A stretch of DNA of 43,300 bases, from contig JAFXVJ010000003.1 in NCBI GenBank assembly GCA_017524615.1, positions 1-43,300 of the forward strand. Direction: 5' to 3'. The translations under genes were made by a program, and so were the position numbers. Shown piece by piece: positions 15,747 through 43,300 of this stretch. The DNA comes from Clostridia bacterium (lineage in GTDB: Bacteria; Bacillota; Clostridia; Christensenellales; Aristaeellaceae). The notes under the pieces were generated by a model. It searched no databases. It saw only the letters and a program-made list of their open reading frames with translations, and had not been told where the DNA came from. The stretch's first letter is position 1; every line of letters begins with the position of its first letter.

Positions 15747-15908
15747 ATACTATTCTCAGTATAAAAGATGATCAGATTTGGGATGAGTTTTTCGCCCTGG
15801 CTAAGCTGAATGGAGGGAGGCGTAGCACCGCTGCGTTGACCGGAATGAAGCAACGCCAGGGCGGAAATGACACCCAAAGATGATAAGATTTTAGATTGAG
15901 AATAGTAT
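15747..15908. repeat. Repeat B, copy 1: MITE-like palindromic element
   Basis: 162 bp bounded by perfect 12-bp inverted termini ATACTATTCTCA (15747-15758) and TGAGAATAGTAT (15897-15908), with imperfect pairing continuing inward. A second stem is CGCCCTGGC / GCCAGGGCG, and inside it GCGTTG / CAACGC. Similar to 33404-33550, where the same stems are kept with different bases, and partly to 16138-16325. Encodes nothing visible. It interrupts the space between metH and its terminator. Confidence 0.8.
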
Positions 15909-31054: not shown

Positions 31055-31888
31055 TCAGCCTTCCGCATCGCTGACCATCCCCCGGGTGATGCTCTTGCGC
31101 AGGAGCAAAAACAGCAGGAAGGCAGGCACCAGGGAAATGGCCACGCCGGCCAGCACCTGATGGTAATTGGTGCCTTCCACGGTGGTGAGCATGGTGATAC
31201 CCACCTGAATGGTGCGCATGTCGTTGTGATTGGTGACCAGCAGGGGCCACAGATAGGTGTTCCACAGGGCCACAAAACCCTGCACATACAGCATCACCAG
31301 CAGCGGCCGGCTGACCGGCAGCAGGATGCTGACCAGGAACCGGATGTCCCCGCAGCCGTCCATCTGGGCGGCATCGCGCAGGGAACGCGGGGAGGACAGG
31401 AAATGCTGCCGCAGCATGAACATCTGGCTGGCCCCCACAAAGGATACGATGGCCATGCCCAGATAATTGTCCAGCAGCCCCAGGCGCGCCACTGTCTGAT
31501 AGTTGGTAACGATCATGGTATCCGCCGGCAGCATCATGGTGGCCAGGATGAAGATGAACAGCGCCTTTTTCCCTTTGAATTCAAAGAACACAAAGGCGTA
31601 AGCCGCCAGCACCGCAAAGGACAGGCGCACCGTGGTGCCCAGCACCGCCACGATCAGGGAATTGAGAAAAAACCGCAGCACCGGCACCATGGCCCACACG
31701 GCCTCAAAGTTTTTCGTGTAGGAAAAGCTGCGGGGCAGCAGCGTGGGCGGATAGGCGGAAAACTCCGCCTCGCTTTTGAACGCGCCCATCACGCCGTACA
31801 CCAGCGGAAAAATCACCAGCAGCCCCGCCGCCAGCGCCAGCAGGGACATCACGGCGTTCACCGTCCGCTTTTTCACGCCCGCGTTCAC
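31055..31888 (-). CDS. Carbohydrate ABC transporter permease (UgpE/MalG-like)
   Basis: 277 residues, six membrane spans. Typical segments: PLVYGVMGAFKSEAEF, FLNSLIVAVLG, ATMMLPADTMIVTNYQTV, and the cytoplasmic EAA-like loop DAAQMDGCG (172-180) that contacts the ATPase. The GTG start (31886-31888) overlaps the TGA of the upstream permease (31885-31887) and has GGGGGAG upstream, which settles the start. No ATPase gene is in the operon, so it should use a shared MsiK-type ATPase encoded elsewhere (inference). Confidence 0.92.
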   Translation of the reverse strand: MNAGVKKRTVNAVMSLLALAAGLLVIFPLVYGVMGAFKSEAEFSAYPPTLLPRSFSYTKNFEAVWAMVPVLRFFLNSLIVAVLGTTVRLSFAVLAAYAFVFFEFKGKKALFIFILATMMLPADTMIVTNYQTVARLGLLDNYLGMAIVSFVGASQMFMLRQHFLSSPRSLRDAAQMDGCGDIRFLVSILLPVSRPLLVMLYVQGFVALWNTYLWPLLVTNHNDMRTIQVGITMLTTVEGTNYHQVLAGVAISLVPAFLLFLLLRKSITRGMVSDAEG

Positions 31889-32787
31889 TGGTAACTCCCC
31901 CTTTTGCCCTCCAGCCAGAATCCCAGCACGGTAAAGGTCAGCGTCAGGAAAAAGGTCACCAGGCTGACGCAGGCCGCCAGGCCATAGTTTGCGGAGGAAT
32001 AGCCCGAGGAATACATCATGTAGATCAGCGTGGTGGTGGCGCGGAGCGAGGAGGTGCCCTGGGTGAGGATGATCACCGGCCCGCTGGTCATCATGGCCTG
32101 CACCATGTTGGTGCACGCCACGTAAAACAGCGTGGGGACGATCAGGGGCAATTGCACCCGGAAAAACCGGGACAGCGGCCCCGCGCCATCCAAAGTGGCC
32201 GCCTCCAGGATGCCGGAGGGGATGCTGCGCAGCGCCGACAGGAAAAGGAGAAAATTGAACCCCAGACCCATCCACACCGTCAGCATCAGGATGCCGTACA
32301 TGGCGGTGTTTTTATCGGTGTACCAGCCGATGTTCAGCCCCAGCGCATAATTGAAGTATCCTACCGTGGGATTGAGCAGCACCTTGAAAACCAGGCCGGC
32401 CGACGCCATCGAAACAGCGATGGGCACCGAAAACAGCGTTTCATTCACGGCGCTGAGGTGCCTTCTTTTCCACACCAGCAGCGCCATGCCCAGCGTCAGC
32501 GCCACCGTCGCCGGCACGTTGATCAGCATCAGGCGCAGGGTGTTTTCCAGCGCGATTTTGAAATCCCGCCGGGAAAACAGATAAGAAAAATTGTCCGTTC
32601 CGGCGAATCCCACGATCTCGCCCTTGAAATTCACCTGGCTGAAGGCGTACAGAAAGGTTTTGAAAAAAGGGTAGTATACAAAGCCCACCGCGAACGTCAA
32701 AATGGGCAGCAGGAATAAATAGGGCTTTAGCTGCTGCCGAATCGGCTTCCGGCGGCGCAGGTCAGCCGCATGGGCATCGCTTGGCAT
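31885..32787 (-). CDS. Carbohydrate ABC transporter permease (UgpA/MalF-like)
   Basis: 300 residues with six membrane spans; starts with a charged cytoplasmic stretch then KPYLFLLPILTFAVGFVYYPFF. Conserved PTVGYFNYALGLN and the EAA loop EAATLDGAGPLSRFF (195-209). Forms a heterodimer with the overlapping UgpE-like gene. First gene of the importer operon, with a promoter about 100 bases upstream. Confidence 0.93.
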   Translation of the reverse strand: MPSDAHAADLRRRKPIRQQLKPYLFLLPILTFAVGFVYYPFFKTFLYAFSQVNFKGEIVGFAGTDNFSYLFSRRDFKIALENTLRLMLINVPATVALTLGMALLVWKRRHLSAVNETLFSVPIAVSMASAGLVFKVLLNPTVGYFNYALGLNIGWYTDKNTAMYGILMLTVWMGLGFNFLLFLSALRSIPSGILEAATLDGAGPLSRFFRVQLPLIVPTLFYVACTNMVQAMMTSGPVIILTQGTSSLRATTTLIYMMYSSGYSSANYGLAACVSLVTFFLTLTFTVLGFWLEGKRGSYQ

Positions 32788-32911: not shown

Positions 32912-33039
32912 TGAACCCAAAACGGTTTTTCTTGGCTTTTGATAAACAGCATCGGGAAATACTTCATTGTAGGGATATCATACTGTTCGCGTTCTAAAAC
33001 ACAATTCGCAAAGAGTGAGATAAGAACAGGAGGCCGAGG

Positions 33040-33408
33040 CAGGGGCCTGCGCGGCCCCTGAACCCCGCGCCAGGGGATGATCCCCTGGACCCACTCCTCG
33101 CGAAATTGCTTGATCGGTAAAACCAAGGAATCGTCGCGTGTTACGCTGGAATTACAGAAAGCTTGAGAGCTTCTGGCCCAATGAAAGCCGGGAAAATCCC
33201 CAGGGAAAAGCGAGCTTTTCCATGGGGATGGTTCCCCGGCTTTCCCCGGATGCATCGCATCCGGGATGGCCGCTTTCAGCGGCCGGGCCAGAAGCTATAC
33301 GATGACCACCGCCGTTATAGCGCCCTTTCTGGTTCTCTTTCGGGCTTCGAAAGAGAACGCCCCGTCGTCCCTTTGCTCTTTTTTTCATCCTTGCCAATTT
33401 GGATCTTA
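33040..33408. repeat. Dispersed structured repeat A, copy 2
   Basis: Matches 1-342 from 33062 on and reveals the left end missing there: a GGGGCC-tgcgc-GGCCCC hairpin at 33042-33058. The same stems recur: outer AGCTTCTGGCCC / GGGCCAGAAGCT (33168-33180 and 33285-33297), inner AAAGCCGGG / CCCGGCTTT, central hairpin AAAAGCGAGCTTTT, two short palindromes, and GTTCTCTTTCG / CGAAAGAGAAC. The 3' end runs directly into repeat B copy 2. No gene. Confidence 0.85.
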
Positions 33409-33558
33409 AATCTTAACAGATTTGGGATGGATTTTTGTTCTGGCTAAGCGGAACGAAGGGTGGCGCCGCAGCGCTGCGTTGACCGGAGTGACGCACTGCC
33501 AGAATGTAAATGACGTCCAAAGATGTAAGATTTTTGAAGAAGAACAGTATTACTGTTC
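33404..33558. repeat. Repeat B, copy 2
   Basis: About 147 bp similar to 15747-15908. Ends pair imperfectly (AAATCTTA...AGATTTGGGA with TCCAAAGATGTAAGATTT). The inner stem is TTCTGGC / GCCAGAA where copy 1 has CCCTGGC / GCCAGGG, and the innermost hairpin is TGCGT / ACGCA where copy 1 has GCGTTG / CAACGC. An added perfect palindrome GAACAGTA-T-TACTGTTC closes it (33542-33558). Confidence 0.75.
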
Positions 33559-33688: not shown

Positions 33689-34978
33689 TCATGTCCGGAA
33701 AGCATCTTCCATCTTCAGATAGGCCAGACACAATGCTATTCCGAGAGCACCCATCAGAAAGAACTGGACGGCGATCCCGGCGCCCATTCCTGCACCAAAG
33801 AACGGAATCAGCCATTTTTGCAGGGGCGAATCCGACATCATCAACGGTTCAAATGCATGATCCGCCAGCAGGCCGCCCAAAAACAGGCCCAAGGGAATGG
33901 CACAGTTTTTCAGTGTGCTTTCTGCAGAGAAAACTCGGCCTTGCAATTCCAATGGGATCTGTTCTCGCATAAGCACCGTCAGATGCGCGTTCATGACCGC
34001 GGCCATGGCGTATGACCCAAAGGCAGCGGCGCACCAGACAACAGGATGCTGCGACAGGCCCTGGAAGATGTTCCCCGAAAATACAAGGGCTGTGCTGATG
34101 CCGATCAGTTTCAGCCTGTTTTTTACAGGCTTCATCCATGTGACAAGGAGACTGCCCGCCATCACACCCAGGGCAACAGAGCTTTGAACCGCACCCAAAA
34201 CCTGTTGGTTTCCTCCGGTCCTTGCCAGAACAAAGGGGGACAGAAGTCCGTCGTTGCTCATTTTTGCAAGGAAGTTGACGCAGGTCATAAACAGGATCAA
34301 ACGCAGCAGCACGGTATGGCTGCGCAGGAATCGGAAGCCTTCCGCGCAGGTTTTTCGGAATGGTTCTTTTTGTTCTTTTTCTGTACCCTCAGCCTTTGGG
34401 ATTCGGATAAAAAGAAGCAGAACGATGAACGCTGCGAAAAAGCTGCAAAGATCGCAGATTAAAACGATCTTCAATCCACCGAAAGACAATAGAGCGGCAC
34501 CCATAGCGGGAGCCAGAATGGAAACTGCAGCCCCGGAAAAACCCTGCAGCCCGCTGACCCTGGCATACTGCTTCTTTGGCACCAAAAGACTGGTTGCCAC
34601 AAAGGCGGCAGGCTCCTGGAACGCATTCATGCAGCTGAGCAGGATATTGATCAGGTACAGGTGCCAAACCCGGAGCACAGAAAACGAATACAGTAAATAG
34701 ACGCTGAACGTTCCGCTTGCAGCAAACAGATCAGCTGCCAGCATGATGCGCTTTTTATCCCAACGGTCTGCCATCGCACCGGCTGCGAACCTGAAAAGGA
34801 TCGTAGGCGCAAACGAGCAGAGTGTGAGCAGCGTAGTGCTGGAAGCCGTTCCTTCCTGACGATAGATCCACACGATCAGCGCATATTCCGTCATTGCTGT
34901 TCCGAGAGCGGATACAGCCTGTGAACTCCAAAGAAGAAGGAAACTTTTCAGTTCCTTCAGGATATTCAGTTTTTTCAT
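33689..34978 (-). CDS. MFS exporter, macrolide-efflux-like (MefA/Tet(V)-type family)
   Basis: 429 residues with about 12 membrane helices, starting LLWSSQAVSALGTAMTEYALIVWIY, with the loop motif RFAAGAMADRWDKKRIM (MFS motif A between helices 2 and 3) and NAFQEPAAFVATSLLVPKKQYARVSGL, typical of the drug-efflux MFS group near MefA and EntS. Substrate unknown; antibiotic or siderophore export is the usual role. The DNA is clearly poorer in GC than its neighbours (a line near 34441 is about 43% against above 60% elsewhere) and codons end in A/T more often, so recent transfer is likely. AAGGAG precedes the start. Confidence 0.87.
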   Translation of the reverse strand: MKKLNILKELKSFLLLWSSQAVSALGTAMTEYALIVWIYRQEGTASSTTLLTLCSFAPTILFRFAAGAMADRWDKKRIMLAADLFAASGTFSVYLLYSFSVLRVWHLYLINILLSCMNAFQEPAAFVATSLLVPKKQYARVSGLQGFSGAAVSILAPAMGAALLSFGGLKIVLICDLCSFFAAFIVLLLFIRIPKAEGTEKEQKEPFRKTCAEGFRFLRSHTVLLRLILFMTCVNFLAKMSNDGLLSPFVLARTGGNQQVLGAVQSSVALGVMAGSLLVTWMKPVKNRLKLIGISTALVFSGNIFQGLSQHPVVWCAAAFGSYAMAAVMNAHLTVLMREQIPLELQGRVFSAESTLKNCAIPLGLFLGGLLADHAFEPLMMSDSPLQKWLIPFFGAGMGAGIAVQFFLMGALGIALCLAYLKMEDAFRT

Positions 34979-36669: not shown

Positions 36670-38118
36670 TTATTGCCATTCGATGCCTGCATAATTGCTG
36701 CTGGGCGTCAGGTCATACACCACCCGGCGCACTTCCGGCTGGCTGCGCAGGATGCGGTCCACCACGTTTTCCACCAGATCATACGGCAGCCGGGCGGCAC
36801 AGGCCTGGGTGCGTTCGCTGGCGTGCACTGCCCGCAGGCACACCACCATGCCATCCTCTCCGGGCATGGGGCTGAGCACCGCGAAATACTGCCACAGCCG
36901 CTTGACCGCGCCGGAGCGCTGCAATTCGCTGCGGAATATGGCGTCTGCTTCCCGCAGGATCTGAAGCCTCTGCGGCGTCACCTGGCCCATGATCCGTAAA
37001 GCCAAGCCGCTGCCCGGGAAGGGCTGGCGCGACAGGATGTCCGGTGGGATGCCCAGATAATCGCCCACCCGTCGGATCTCATCCTTGAACAGCTCCCGCA
37101 CCGGCTCGATCACCGGCACCGAATCGCACAGCACCGGCTGGTTCGCACTGGCGCCGGTCATGATGTCGTTGTAGCTGGTCCCGCGAATGAGGGCGTCAAA
37201 ATGCCCCAGCCTGCCTTTTTCCTCATTCAGGACGGCCTGCAGGGTTTCGCCAATGGCGCGGCGCTTCTCTTCCGGCTCGCTGAGCCCTTCCAGGGCCTGC
37301 AGGAACCGTTCCGCCGCGTTCACCCGGAGGATGTCCATGCCCAGCTGATCCCGGTAATAGGCCATAAAGGCGTCGCCTTCCTGGGCCCGGAGCAGGCCGG
37401 TATCCACAAAGATGCATTTCAGGTGATCCCCCAGCGCCTTGAAGGCCAGCAGCGCGCTGACGCCGCTGTCCAGCCCGCCGGTCATGGCGCACACGGCCTT
37501 TCCGCCGTCCGTCACCCGCCTGATTTCTTCGATCGCCTGGTCCACAAAGGCATCGTCGTCCCACCAGGCCGTGCAGGAGCACACATTCAGGGCGAAATTT
37601 TTCAGCATCAGGGAGCCTTCGGGATCCACCGGCTCCACCTCAAACTGCAATCCATAGAAGGGCAGGCTTTCATGCCGGAAGCCCACGATGATTTCCTGGG
37701 CCTGGCACAGGGGCACGACCTGGTCCGGCAGACGGAAATCCCGGGCGCAGGGCAGCAGCCGCTCGGCCGTTTCAATGCCCTCGGTCAGGGGGCTGGGCTG
37801 GCAGACCAGGCTGGCCATGGCGCCTCTCAGTTCCGCCTCTCCCACGGATCCGCCCAGGGCGGTCAGCATCAGCGCGGCAGCGCCGCCCAGGGCCAGCACA
37901 GGAATGCCCAGGGCAAACAGGCGGCTGTCCAGCCCGGCGGGCACATCGCCTCCAGGGCTGCCCGCGAGGATCAATCCCAGGGGATCCTGGGCCTGAATCT
38001 CCTCCAGGGGAATGCTTCCCGGAACGATTATGCTCTGCACCCGCTCAGCGCGCAGCTTGCGGGTGACGGCCCGGCTGGACCCATCGTCAAAATTCAGCAC
38101 CAGCACCATGTCTCGCAT
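36670..38118 (-). CDS. GuaA-like protein with degenerate glutaminase and altered synthetase site
   Basis: 482 residues, architecture of GMP synthase: class I amidotransferase domain, ATP pyrophosphatase domain (TGGLDSGV at 213-220, P-loop-like), dimerisation domain (RQPFPGSGLALRIMG, VVYDLTP...AGIEWQ). In the glutaminase half the nucleophile Cys of GxCYGxQ is Gly78 (VLALGGAAALM) and the His of QFHPEV is Glu160 (GLQFEVEP), so it cannot hydrolyse glutamine in the normal way. In the synthetase half the IKSHHNVGGLP segment is missing (GASANQPVLCDSV) and the KPP before IEWE is lost. A paralogue with changed or regulatory function is likelier than the housekeeping GuaA. ATG 38116-38118 has GAGGTGG upstream; an ATG four codons earlier is also open. 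Confidence 0.82.
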   Translation of the reverse strand: MRDMVLVLNFDDGSSRAVTRKLRAERVQSIIVPGSIPLEEIQAQDPLGLILAGSPGGDVPAGLDSRLFALGIPVLALGGAAALMLTALGGSVGEAELRGAMASLVCQPSPLTEGIETAERLLPCARDFRLPDQVVPLCQAQEIIVGFRHESLPFYGLQFEVEPVDPEGSLMLKNFALNVCSCTAWWDDDAFVDQAIEEIRRVTDGGKAVCAMTGGLDSGVSALLAFKALGDHLKCIFVDTGLLRAQEGDAFMAYYRDQLGMDILRVNAAERFLQALEGLSEPEEKRRAIGETLQAVLNEEKGRLGHFDALIRGTSYNDIMTGASANQPVLCDSVPVIEPVRELFKDEIRRVGDYLGIPPDILSRQPFPGSGLALRIMGQVTPQRLQILREADAIFRSELQRSGAVKRLWQYFAVLSPMPGEDGMVVCLRAVHASERTQACAARLPYDLVENVVDRILRSQPEVRRVVYDLTPSSNYAGIEWQ

Positions 38119-38187
38119 GATTATTTCCACCTCTTTGAGGTCAGGATCCCTGAACAGGGGGAACCTTGATTCATTCGACGGCTGACG

Positions 38188-39241: not shown

Positions 39242-42200
39242 TCAGAAGTCCGCGTCGGGGAAATCCTGATTCTGATCAGGGTTCATGTTCTTATACCGGT
39301 CGGACCTGCGCTGCCGCGGACGGCCTGCCGTCTGGGTGCTATTGAGATCCGGCTGGCTGCCGGCCATCCACGGATCCTGGCCCGCTGCGGACGGAGCCGA
39401 TCCGGGCGCCTGATAGCCGCTGTTCCAATTCTGGAAGGGCTGACCCGCGGGACGGGCGGGGGTGGAATTCATGTTCTGGAAGGGTTTGAAGGTCTGGGTC
39501 CCTCCGGCTGCGCCATCCGGCCTGTTCATATCCTGGAATGGCTTGAAAGGCTTGGTTTCGCCTACCGCAGGCACATTGGTCTGCAAAGGCTTGAAATTCT
39601 GCGTGGGCCGGGGCGAACCGCCCTGCGGCGGCATGAAGGGCGCCGTGGACTGGGACGGGTAAGCGGGCCGATTGGTCTGCGTAGGATTGTTCTGCGCCTG
39701 ACGCATCACCGGCTGACCGCTGGCCGAAGACTGCCGGATCTGCTGGCTGCGGGCCGCCTGACGGCGTTTTTCGTTCTTCCGGTGCAGATAGTAGGCATAG
39801 CCGATTCCGCCGCCGCCCACGGCCGCCACGCCCAGCAGCGCAGCGGGCAGGATCCAGCCGTTGCCGCTCTTGGGCGCTTCATCGCCCTGCGGCGCAGGCT
39901 CCACGGTGGGCAGCACGGTGGGCGCCTCCGTGACCGCCGCGGTGGCGGTAGGCGCGGGCGTCTCCGTCACCAGCAGTTCAGGATCGGGGGTGGGCGTCGC
40001 GTAGGGATTGAAGGGCTCATAGGATACCGCCAGGGCCGGATTCTGCCACACGATGGCGTTGTAATCCTCCACCGGCTGGATTTCATTGGGGTTGCCGCCC
40101 ACGTTGCCGCCATTGGCGTCCAGGTATTCGCTGCTCTGCAGGAAGCTGGACAGTTCACCCAAGGTGAGCACCTTGAAGTAGTTGCTCATCACGTAGCCTT
40201 CGGTGCCCGCCTGGCTGATATGGTACCAGGTGCCTTCGCTGTTGCTGACGGTGCCCATCACCAGGGCAAAGGCGTAATTGTCCAAAAGCCGGATCCGGCT
40301 GGCCTGGGTGCTGGGTTCAGCGCGCAGGTTCACCTTGCCGCTGTTGCTGATGATGTGGCCGTAGCTGGAGGGGCTGTCCTGGGTGACAGGCGCCGGCGTG
40401 GGGGCGGGCGACGGCGTAGGCGTGCCGCCGGCCAGGCTCTGGTCATAGGCCAGGCTTTCCTGGGCGTCCATCATGCGCAGCAGGTCCTGGCGCACATAGC
40501 CCCACAGGCCGTTGTACTGCACCAGATGCCAGGCCGCCTGGCCGGTATAATACTGGCCCCGAACGATGGCCACGGCGCCGTAGGGAATATAGGTCAGGAT
40601 TTCGCCATTGGTGTCCGGGAAGCCGCGCATGGGCACGTTGTCGATCCTGGTCATGGCATAGCCGTCGTACTGATCGGGCACAGGCGACGCGGTCACGGGG
40701 GGCTCTGTGGCATTGATCTGATCCAGATAGGGCCGCGCCGCTTCATTGCTGATGGGCTTCAGGGACGAGGAGGGCATGTAGCCAAAGCTGGAGGTGCGCA
40801 CATCCTGCACCTTGGACCAGGCAGTGCCGTCCACATACACCTCATCGGTCACGATCACCAGGGAATCCGCCATCAGGATCTGCATGATGGTATCATCGGT
40901 CAGGCTGGCGCCGGTGCGCAGGGGCACCTGGCCCTGGGTGAGGGCATAGCCCCGATAGGGCACGGGGGAAGACGTGGGCACGTTGGTGGGCGTCGCGTCA
41001 GGCGCCTGGGTGACCGCCTGCGTAGGCGCGTCTGTGGGGGCCTGGGTGGGCGCCTGGGTGGCCAGAGGGGTCTGGGTGGGCACAGGGGAAGAGATGGTGG
41101 CCTGAATGGCGTCGCTTTCCGCCTGGCTGAACAGATCCACATACCGGCTCATGAGGTAGCCGTCCGTTCCCTTCACGCACACGTGATACCAGATATCGCC
41201 GCCTACATTCTGGGAATCGTATACCCACACCCGGGTATTTTTGGACAGAGAATCGATCTTGTTGTCCGCCACCTGGGGAGACCGGCGGAAATTCACGCTG
41301 TTGTTGGTGATGGCCCAGCGGTCAATGGCGGCGCCCACGGGAACATCGGTGGGCGCGGGGGTAGGCGGCTGCGTGGGCGGCTGCGTATAGCCGAACAAAG
41401 CCGCGATTTCCGCTTCGCTCAGCAGCCGCACCACCGTCACGTTCAGATAGCCCTGCTGGCCGTCGATCTCCACGGCATACCACACCTTGTTCTGAGGAGT
41501 GGTTACTTTGCCGATGATGTGCGCCAGCTGATTGGAATTGACCGTGCCGATGATGTTGTTTTCGGCCGTGGTGGGCGAAGAACGGAAATTGATGCTGCTG
41601 CCCGTGGGATAGCCGTAGGTGTCCATAGGCTCGTCAATGGGAATCTGCGTAGGCGAGGGGGTCACAGGGGCCGGCGTAGCAATGTACTCATACAGGAAAA
41701 TGATTTCTTCCTGGCTCAGGGTGCCGTCGGCATTCAGGATGACCGTGCGGCTGCTGTCGCCGGTCAGGCGATAATTCTCTTCCAGGTCAATGGGCCGCGC
41801 TTCCACGATGTTGCTGCCCACATAGCACAGCTCCTGCCGGGGAGAGGCGATGTCCCGCCCGTCGGCCGCGTCCTGGAATCGGATGGTCACATAGGCATTG
41901 ACTTCATTCTTAAACTGGAAGGTCACTTCATTGGGCGTCGCCTCGCCATTTCCGTTCACCGTCACGACGACCGTTTCGGGAGAGGCCAGTTCATACCCCC
42001 AGGACGGATCCACCCGGCTCCAATCCAGTGAAATCGCATTCTCCTGGCCCTGCACGCAGGTGACCGTTTCGGTATAGAACGCTTCCCCGTTGGGGCGGAT
42101 ATAGCGCACATTCACCAGCGCCACCTTGGGCGTGGGAACTTCATAGCGGTACACGAAAACCACTTCGGCGGGGTTCGCGCCGTTATCATCCACATGCACT

Positions 42201-43300
42201 ATGACAGTGTCCGCGCCGTCCAGCACGTAATTCTCCAGCAGATCCCGCGGCTGCGCCTGAACGGCCGTGTCGCCGGGCATGCATTCCACCACGTCCGCCG
42301 TCGCCACATCCAGCATCTCCTGGGACAGATACCTGACCGTCACCGGGATGGACGCAGGCACGGCCACAGGAATTTCTGTCGGGCCTTCCGTCGGCACCGC
42401 CGTGGGCACCTCCGTCGGGACTTCGGTGGGAACCTCCGTGGGAGCTTCCGTGGGGATTTCCGTCGGGGCTTCCGTCGGAACCTCGGTCGGCACCTCTGTG
42501 GGCGGGGCCACATACCGGTACACGAAGGTGATTTCCGCGGGGCTGGCGCCGTCGGCTGTCAGGATCACGTTCTGATATTCAGGGGTTCCATCCGCGGGCA
42601 CAAAATTCTCCGGCAGGTTTTCCGGCAGCGGGTACACCGGGGTGGGAACGTCCGTATTGGTAATGGTCTGATAGGTGTCCGCCGCAATGGCAGCGCCCAG
42701 TTCATCCGTATAATGAATGGTGACCATGGCGGGATGGATGATCCGGCGGTAGATGAAGGTGATCTCCGACGGGTTCGCCCCATTGGCGTCCACCGTCACG
42801 TTCACCGCGCTGTCGCTGATGAGTTCCCAGTCCTCGGCGTTCACAGCCGCGTCGGGATAAACTGCATTATCACCGGGATTCACCGTCTGATAGGTGTCCG
42901 CGGCGATTGGCGCATAGTTTTCATCCACATAATGAACCGTCACCGTACTGGGCTTGACGATCCGGCGATAGATGAAGGTGATCTCCGGCGGGTTCGCTCC
43001 GTTGGCGTCCACCGACACGTTCACCGCGCTGTCGCTGATGAGTTCCCAGTCCTCGGCGTTCACCGCTGCGTCGGGATACACGGTATTTTCGCCGGGATTC
43101 ACCGTTTGATAGGTGTCCGCGGCGATTGGCGCATAGTTTTCATCCACATAGTGGATCGTCACCGTACCGGGCTTGACGATTCGGCGATAGATGAAGGTGA
43201 TTTCAGCCGGGTTCGCTCCGTTGGCGTCCACCGTCACGTTCACCGCGCTGTCGCTGATCAATTCCCAGTCCTCGGCGTTCACAGCCGCGTCGGGATACAC
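39242..43300 (-). CDS. Giant surface protein with MucBP-like repeats, five SH3 domains and one transmembrane helix (N-terminus outside window)
   Basis: 1352 residues are visible; the gene enters across the right edge, so the start codon is not in the window. From the N-terminal side: 73-residue MucBP-like repeats (V-T-I-H-Y-V-D-E-N...AEITFIYRR), three nearly identical and one diverged; a PTEVPTEAP-type linker (about 263-307); three further diverged MucBP-like units (to about 545); five bacterial SH3 units joined by Thr/Pro linkers (about 560-1085; NFRSSPT, NFRRSPQ, PLRTGAS, PMRGFPD, NLRAEPS); a transmembrane helix (about 1146-1168); and a 180-residue cytoplasmic tail rich in Gln/Asn with three FKP(F/L)Q motifs, ending basic then NMNPDQNQDFPDADF. 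No LPXTG. Likely an adhesin or wall-bound scaffold (inference). Confidence 0.9.
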   Translation of the reverse strand: MYPDAAVNAEDWELISDSAVNVTVDANGANPAEITFIYRRIVKPGTVTIHYVDENYAPIAADTYQTVNPGENTVYPDAAVNAEDWELISDSAVNVSVDANGANPPEITFIYRRIVKPSTVTVHYVDENYAPIAADTYQTVNPGDNAVYPDAAVNAEDWELISDSAVNVTVDANGANPSEITFIYRRIIHPAMVTIHYTDELGAAIAADTYQTITNTDVPTPVYPLPENLPENFVPADGTPEYQNVILTADGASPAEITFVYRYVAPPTEVPTEVPTEAPTEIPTEAPTEVPTEVPTEVPTAVPTEGPTEIPVAVPASIPVTVRYLSQEMLDVATADVVECMPGDTAVQAQPRDLLENYVLDGADTVIVHVDDNGANPAEVVFVYRYEVPTPKVALVNVRYIRPNGEAFYTETVTCVQGQENAISLDWSRVDPSWGYELASPETVVVTVNGNGEATPNEVTFQFKNEVNAYVTIRFQDAADGRDIASPRQELCYVGSNIVEARPIDLEENYRLTGDSSRTVILNADGTLSQEEIIFLYEYIATPAPVTPSPTQIPIDEPMDTYGYPTGSSINFRSSPTTAENNIIGTVNSNQLAHIIGKVTTPQNKVWYAVEIDGQQGYLNVTVVRLLSEAEIAALFGYTQPPTQPPTPAPTDVPVGAAIDRWAITNNSVNFRRSPQVADNKIDSLSKNTRVWVYDSQNVGGDIWYHVCVKGTDGYLMSRYVDLFSQAESDAIQATISSPVPTQTPLATQAPTQAPTDAPTQAVTQAPDATPTNVPTSSPVPYRGYALTQGQVPLRTGASLTDDTIMQILMADSLVIVTDEVYVDGTAWSKVQDVRTSSFGYMPSSSLKPISNEAARPYLDQINATEPPVTASPVPDQYDGYAMTRIDNVPMRGFPDTNGEILTYIPYGAVAIVRGQYYTGQAAWHLVQYNGLWGYVRQDLLRMMDAQESLAYDQSLAGGTPTPSPAPTPAPVTQDSPSSYGHIISNSGKVNLRAEPSTQASRIRLLDNYAFALVMGTVSNSEGTWYHISQAGTEGYVMSNYFKVLTLGELSSFLQSSEYLDANGGNVGGNPNEIQPVEDYNAIVWQNPALAVSYEPFNPYATPTPDPELLVTETPAPTATAAVTEAPTVLPTVEPAPQGDEAPKSGNGWILPAALLGVAAVGGGGIGYAYYLHRKNEKRRQAARSQQIRQSSASGQPVMRQAQNNPTQTNRPAYPSQSTAPFMPPQGGSPRPTQNFKPLQTNVPAVGETKPFKPFQDMNRPDGAAGGTQTFKPFQNMNSTPARPAGQPFQNWNSGYQAPGSAPSAAGQDPWMAGSQPDLNSTQTAGRPRQRRSDRYKNMNPDQNQDFPDADF
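42370..42507. repeat. Tandem 12-base coding repeat (Pro-Thr-Glu-x linker)
   Basis: Near-regular 12-base units of the surface-protein gene, encoding PTEV/PTEA/PTEI units. Coding, prone to slip-strand length change. Confidence 0.85.
42720..43300. repeat. 219-bp tandem repeats encoding MucBP-like units
   Basis: About 2.6 copies with a 219-base period and very high identity (the block TTCCCAGTCCTCGGCGTTCA recurs at 43044 and 43263). More copies are expected beyond the window edge. High identity suggests recent duplication or gene conversion. Confidence 0.85.

Follow-up and report, generated by a model that had tools for sequence, protein, structure and literature searches.

The window, by which we mean the whole 43,300-nucleotide stretch of DNA that was analysed, holds two copies of a repeated block, here called Repeat A. 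One copy lies between an ABC permease gene (31885–32787, − strand) and an MFS transporter gene (33689–34978, − strand), and the other is cut on its left side by the contig end at position 1. The initial annotation had paired positions 1–342 with 33062–33408 as similar non-coding blocks, which was borne out by an alignment of the two copies (91% identity over 1–341 and 33062–33408). When the copies of the same genome were aligned with their flanks, the internal window copy (locus L049) was found to be larger than first described, spanning 32981–33549, with the core at 33020–33408 and an extra module at 33411–33532; the core region recognised earlier is thus real, and its extent was drawn too small. 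The features are as follows, in window coordinates.

32978–32980, no strand: left flank TCA, at the target duplication position, mismatching the right flank TTA
32981–32997, + strand: left terminal inverted repeat TACTGTTCGCGTTCTAA
33020–33408, + strand: core (Repeat A), found at 40 places in the genome
33040–33060, + strand: hairpin H1
33070–33088, + strand: hairpin H2
33169–33179, + strand: 5′ arm of stem P1, which closes a three-hairpin domain
33184–33243, + strand: hairpin H3, the inner stem of the initial annotation
33245–33265, + strand: hairpin H4, CCCGGATGC-NNN-GCATCCGGG, with arms nearly invariant within the genome and a variable loop
33268–33284, + strand: hairpin H5
33285–33295, + strand: 3′ arm of P1
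33333–33357, + strand: right-half hairpin, the final hairpin of the initial annotation, with a 3-nt indel between copies and no compensation
33411–33532, + strand: module B, which also occurs without the core
33536–33549, + strand: right terminal inverted repeat GAAGAAGAACAGTA
33550–33552, no strand: right flank TTA
1–355, + strand: second copy, cut on the left by the contig end, with right end GTA at 353–355 and flank TCA at 356–358
15748–15907, + strand: MITE of 160 bp that stands alone and belongs to this terminal-repeat superfamily, with a module-B-like interior

Elsewhere in the window, a large open frame of 1352 aa on the − strand (39242–43300), which matches SH3_3 and MucBP, continues up to the contig end. 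A 486-aa protein (36670–38130, − strand) matches glutamine amidotransferase, NAD-synthase and GMP synthase C-terminal models and is apparently a GMP synthase.

Among 23 full cores, stop-free frames were found in 5 on the − strand and in 1 on the + strand, and core lengths differ modulo 3, so no reading frame is common to the copies; the single protein frame through all copies that the initial annotation had named as evidence against its view was absent from this set.

Further copies were sought in the whole genome and in relatives, as had been proposed. The genome that the window comes from (G000, hereafter the own genome; 2.55 Mb, 59 contigs) gave 69 matches to the query 33020–33420, which were read as 40 places (40 of the 88 candidates scored) plus secondary matches of the self-complementary H3 stretch, and a later locus comparison added fragments beyond these 40. 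A contig end is touched, or lies within 5 bases, at 17 of the 40 places, and some of these may be halves of one copy. Of 28 other genomes in the genus, 27 had matches, as against 0 of 31 from other genera. A scan of GTDB contigs with a core pattern returned at least 110 stretches, and the titles of those listed are Clostridiales, Clostridia or Christensenellaceae MAGs, several of which name goat, sheep or red deer. The core had no match in plasmid and phage collections, even at a distant setting, and one match (L245) in viral contigs. In Rfam, neither block reached the gathering score of any family (best weak match, 20.6 of 76 bits), in keeping with the earlier remark that no named family fits. 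A literature search found no prior description of the element, which may have been described under other words.

The copies have terminal inverted repeats (TACTATTC... / ...GAATAGTA), and intact ones are bounded by TACTATTCGCGTTC-TAA and TTA-GAACGCGAATAGTA, with variants that include TACTATTCTTCTTC and TACTAATTCTCATC. Left and right ends were paired at 68 own loci, which yielded 53 pairings when alternatives at the same locus are counted; the flanking 3-mers were identical in 30 of the 53, and all 30 were TNA (TAA 11, TTA 8, TCA 7, TGA 4). Where both flanks were TNA, the middle base agreed in 30 of 42 pairings versus 11.1 after shuffling (p 5e-5). For core-bearing copies with paired ends, an identical TNA duplication was present in 13 of 19, counting one pairing per locus with the best-fitting ends by the author's choice, and leaving out L043 and L045, in which another element, C, splits the end of the core. 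The six with unequal flanks are L011, L012, L016, L019, L025 and the window copy L049 (TCA/TTA). The identical target duplications that had been named as a sign of a mobile element are therefore present, at these 13 copies and not at the window copy. Insertions into the element were also seen: in L043, element C sits inside the right end of the core and is flanked on each side by TTA, of which uninterrupted cores carry a single one, and in L205 a B-like element splits hairpin H2′, again with TTA on both sides. Of the properties that define a MITE, the family has short, non-coding, dispersed copies, terminal inverted repeats and a target-site duplication, the last missing from the window copy. 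The duplicated TNA sits outside the terminal TA of the repeat, and a TA duplication of IS630 type was not found. Mobility of the Repeat A-bearing element in the own genome is well supported.

Core-bearing elements measure 434–569 bp between paired ends, with shorter deletion forms, and in some of them module B lies between the core and the end. Module B alone, without the core, makes up the 160-bp element, whose example at window 15748–15907 has unequal flanks (TCA and TAA). Elements consisting of module C have ends of the same kind as the core-bearing and B elements. Repeat A, together with the related modules B and C, forms a superfamily of short TNA-flanked elements. Module C is a second abundant MITE of about 212–231 bp that ends in TACTATACTCAAAT / TACTATTCTCAAAT and whose TNA flanks match in most cases (L043, L045, L297–L303 and others), and two whole C elements lie side by side at C43:42362–42826.

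An intact mobiliser was not found in the own assembly (82% complete), which gave 0 matches each to PF13358, PF01609 and PF01797; across the genus, PF01609 was matched in 12 of 29 genomes and PF01797 in 10 of 29. A scan of 25 transposase loci (5 PF13358, 20 PF01609) for frame motifs found no epsilon-end pair around a PF01609 gene. An IS630-type transposase fragment from G023, used as query against 200 genomes of the order, matched in G093, in G223 and in the own genome, where the match is a 35-aa remnant at C41:28447. In G093 and G223, which belong to the same bacterial family, three transposase 3′ ends are followed by a familiar terminus: TTGAGAATAGTA stands within one base after the stop codon in L304 and L307, and a one-mismatch form of it follows the stop codon in L305. 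This motif is the full 12-bp terminus of own-genome B-like and C elements, and core-bearing copies mostly match the IS630 terminus only in the outer 8 bp, GAATAGTA. The left end of L304 is TACTATTTTCAAAT, and its flanks are unequal (TCA, TAA). None of the three transposase copies is whole, each being broken or cut, and the fragments score 79–80 bits against the IS630 model NF033545, for which the whole-protein cut-off is 100. IS630 duplicates TA, and a TNA duplication is unusual for this family. From these shared termini, an IS630-family enzyme likely mobilises the superfamily, with an indirect link to the Repeat A elements themselves.

In relatives, the same core lies in at least four other terminal-repeat frames, namely alpha (GGGCACTTTAAT), beta (TAACAG), gamma (GGCTTACGCATGAAT) and delta (ACAAATTGGGATTTGT). 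Frame matching of 124 relatives' domains, with up to 3 mismatches allowed, assigned both ends to one type in 26, to two different types in 6, one end only in 36, and none in 56, and no clear target duplication was seen for these other frames. The hairpins H1 and H2 and their right-end counterparts H1′ and H2′ come, by eye, in interchangeable types. Several loci carry further sequence within the core: L126 (G023:C60) has an unrelated long hairpin in place of H3 with the surrounding domain kept, and another dispersed repeat of about 120 bp (GACGAACCGCCGATGACC...TGAGCCTGCGGA-like) lies inside the relatives' cores L094, L096, L098 and L127. The viral-contig match L245 is a 4.3-kb IMG/VR contig, filed as viral, that has the core in an alpha frame and is maybe a chromosomal fragment.

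The core folds strongly relative to shuffled sequence (z −7.5 for 33020–33420 on the + strand, −8.6 for its − strand, and −5.1 for 1–360 on the + strand). It holds H1 and H2, followed by the P1 stem enclosing H3, H4 and H5, and in relatives H2′ and H1′ make the right end a mirror image of the left. The initial annotation had quoted inner-stem arms that changed together between the two copies, and these are present as written in both. Compensation in this stem did not hold up within the own genome, where arms paired with their own partners score no better than re-dealt ones (19.42 versus 19.12, z 1.0, p 0.16, 32 copies), and H3 duplex energies of own and re-dealt arms are likewise alike (z −0.6, p 0.28, n=29). 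The compensated change proposed for the final hairpin was not found: copy 1 reads GGTTCTCTTTCGGGCTAAAGAGAA and copy 2 GGTTCTCTTTCGGGCTTCGAAAGAGAA, with an identical 5′ arm and a 3-nt indel on the 3′ side. Since H3 is the least conserved stem of the own genome and the 5′ arm of the final hairpin is unchanged, the two examples first chosen are the weakest ones.

Diversity per site over 35 aligned own-genome copies was 0–0.03 in the arms of H1, H2, P1, H4 and H5, and 0.08–0.14 in the arms of H3; the left linker stood at 0.11, the H4 loop at 0.45 and the H5 loop at 0. The earlier statement that stems are kept and loops vary thus applies within the own genome to the arms of H1, H2, P1, H4 and H5, which lie below most loops and linkers, and fails for H3, which is as variable as the linkers.

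Covariation was assessed in 50 domains, comprising 48 of 102 relatives' domains and the 2 window copies. In this set 99.0% of cells pair, and both-sided changes occur in 70 cells versus 18.7 after shuffling, with 0 of 500 shuffles as high; when the partner arm was slid by 1–3 columns, 1–11 both-sided cells were left. The number of pairs with both-sided changes was 9 versus 5.6 shuffled, and further pair types, one of five measures, were not above shuffles (20 versus 18.6). Because the core scan and domain filter required most P1 and H4 letters and the outer H5 letters, leaving H3 free, the constancy of P1, H4 and H5 among the relatives' domains is in part a product of how they were selected, and the BLAST-found loci L127 and L129 carry other H4 arms. 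Within single genomes of relatives, each H3 arm matched its natural partner more closely than a re-dealt one in 8 of 9 (p 0.0005–0.015; the exception is RUG14052, with 6 copies), and H5 arms do so in 5 of 9 at p<0.05, H5 hardly varying in the own genome. A home-made, R-scape-like null over 7,381 pairs left one pair (in H5) at E<0.05, with RNAalifold helix pairs making up 5 of the top 7 covarying pairs; scaled by our own arithmetic to the 38 proposed pairs, four would pass 0.05. This result was not relied on, since the copies recombine, and weight was placed on the re-dealt-arm and 50-domain shuffle tests. The initial claim that the pattern reflects more than copying is accordingly upheld across the genus by the 70 two-sided cells, and not by the H3 arms of the own genome (p 0.16).

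Selection on one RNA strand is expected to make G·U exceed A·C among stem mismatches. Mismatches were counted in a strand-symmetric alignment of arms from 153 unique domains, one of the original 154 (33 from the own genome and 121 from relatives) having been dropped for want of a recognisable H4; this replaced an earlier RNAalifold count (192 G·U versus 57 A·C) in which one misregistered column pair contributed 119 cells. Flanked mismatches numbered 37 G·U and 41 A·C (21 and 20 distinct contexts), with 17 and 28 in the own genome and 20 and 13 in relatives, neither significant. With mismatches beside other mismatches or gaps included, the totals were 82 and 74, the own genome leaning to A·C (19 versus 41, p 0.006) and the relatives to G·U (63 versus 33, p 0.003, the RNA direction). 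Counted as distinct contexts, the same mismatches came to 9 and 15 in the own genome, 33 and 29 in relatives and 39 and 40 in all, and this evenness suggests that shared ancestry probably drives the imbalance between groups. Outer hairpins (269 in 160 domains) had 2 G·U and 4 A·C. As a control, 50 tRNA acceptor stems gave 13 G·U and 1 A·C (p 0.002), in a small set made with a tRNA finder that tolerates G·U; it supersedes a smaller one of 6 tRNAs (1 versus 1).

Loop orientation was compared at the tip of H3, in pairs sharing the closing pair and the genome group, with loci lacking an assigned genome pooled as one group. Among 522 same-group pairs with different loops, the second loop was the reverse complement of the first in 207, the complement in 22 and the reverse in 5, and both orientations occur in 10 of 11 groups. 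The main H4 loops are TTT and AAA, for which reverse complement and complement are indistinguishable, and no flips were seen within groups for H5 loops. Selection on a folded RNA, one half of what the initial annotation proposed, is thus not supported by the flanked mismatches (37 versus 41), the outer hairpins (2 versus 4, set against 13 versus 1 in tRNAs) and the two orientations of the H3-tip loop; the lack of an overall strand preference, together with these orientations, points to palindromes at the DNA level rather than to one strand of RNA. The other half, a cruciform, is possible. The orientation of neighbouring genes showed no clear preference and no fixed gene context, as judged with a crude gene finder for 13 own and 94 relative copies, after 48 copies at contig edges had been dropped.

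Taken together, these data are best explained, with a probability of roughly 0.8, by Repeat A being the core of a MITE that an IS630-family transposase would move in trans, its arm covariation arising from events on DNA palindromes and not from selection on one RNA strand. Such events would comprise template switching, inversion and conversion between copies; the palindromes as such may also be under some selection. Template switching in replication is predicted to give multi-base swaps with loop inversion, according to PMC8794818, and this account of how the hairpins are maintained would fit the pattern seen here.

A different arrangement would make the core a cassette in its own right, moving between transposon frames, with the terminal repeats as hosts and the core as passenger. 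The finding of the same core in alpha, beta, gamma and delta frames (26 of 124 domains having a single type at their two ends) as well as in the frame of the own genome speaks for it, as do the interchangeable H1, H2, H1′ and H2′ types, but no frame was found in two versions that differ only in having or lacking the core, an insertion signature specific to the core was not found, frame matching tolerated up to 3 mismatches, and homologous recombination between neighbouring MITEs could swap the ends; we regard this arrangement as unlikely. In its fullest form, a genus-wide mobile DNA hairpin cassette independent of any transposon, with at least five frames, swapped modules and palindromes kept by DNA-level flipping, would show RNA-like covariation without RNA selection, a picture to which we likewise give little credence.

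It is more doubtful still that the block is a DNA element useful to its host, such as a cruciform, a site for a nucleoid protein or recombinase, or a bidirectional terminator, that spread through its usefulness. The conservation of most stems within the own genome fits this, and 35 of 37 own-genome H4-like sites fall, on the author's reading, in core places. Conserved stems are, however, also expected if transposition is confined to intact copies, the scan and filter account in part for P1 and H4 being nearly invariant in relatives (L127 and L129 differ in H4), a fixed gene context was not seen, and the terminal repeats and target duplications show transposition.

A structured RNA (a regulatory RNA, or an mRNA leader or trailer) expressed from every copy and kept by selection on its fold has strong folding (z −5 to −9), genus-wide arm covariation, the low variability of most own-genome stems relative to linkers and the relatives' unflanked-inclusive G·U count (63 versus 33) on its side, but as the main reading it was rejected on the parity of G·U and A·C (37 versus 41 flanked, 2 versus 4 in outer hairpins, 39 versus 40 in distinct contexts, with the own genome leaning the opposite way at 19 versus 41 and tRNAs at 13 versus 1), the H3-tip loops in both orientations and the Rfam scores (best 20.6 of 76 bits, below gathering), the indifferent orientation of neighbouring genes adding to this, and we hold it very improbable.

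The MITE-core reading can be set beside known systems. Traits of MITEs used here for comparison are those listed in the consulted section of PMC3049150. Repeat A shares with IS630-linked MITEs a short, non-coding build, IS630-like terminal inverted repeats, high copy number and strong secondary structure. It differs from them, the pneumococcal RUP being one example, in its 3-bp TNA duplication instead of TA, its G+C-rich multi-hairpin core of about 390 bp with optional extra modules, and the occurrence of this core within other terminal-repeat frames among relatives. The BOX elements of streptococci are similarly composite, modular, strongly folded and dispersed, as far as the same section of PMC3049150 describes them; BOX varies there in the number of tandem boxB modules, whereas here different modules (core and B) are combined within shared ends, and none of 60 own loci showed an element with two B modules. 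REP, BIME and REPIN sequences associated with RAYT are also dispersed palindromes in inverted pairs with variable loops, and the definition in the extract of PMC3733652 includes a 20–40 bp palindrome tagged GTAG or CGTC; Repeat A units, in contrast, are far longer and have terminal repeats and target duplications. A REP/RAYT system was rejected, the RAYT-type Y1 transposase domain PF01797 having 0 matches in G000. In PMC8794818, template switching is described as maintaining hairpins in RNA genes, where a single DNA event produces compensatory changes of several bases and inverted loops, and the proposal here would extend this to a mobile element. What is new in the Repeat A elements is the modular build, the TNA duplication combined with IS630-like ends, and a core common to several frames.

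Covariation is widely taken as proof of a functional RNA, and in Repeat A more than 150 domains have arms that co-vary, mismatches with no overall strand preference and H3 loops that flip. False RNA candidates of this sort could be screened out by a simple test of the balance of G·U and A·C together with loop orientation, and the family offers a natural set for studying the mutation of DNA palindromes. Repeat A probably explains part of the fragmentation of the assembly, 17 of its 40 places lying at or within 5 bases of a contig end. For the organism, its biology is likely one of selfish spread, in which hairpins read through from a gene would serve as putative terminators or mRNA stabilisers as a side effect.
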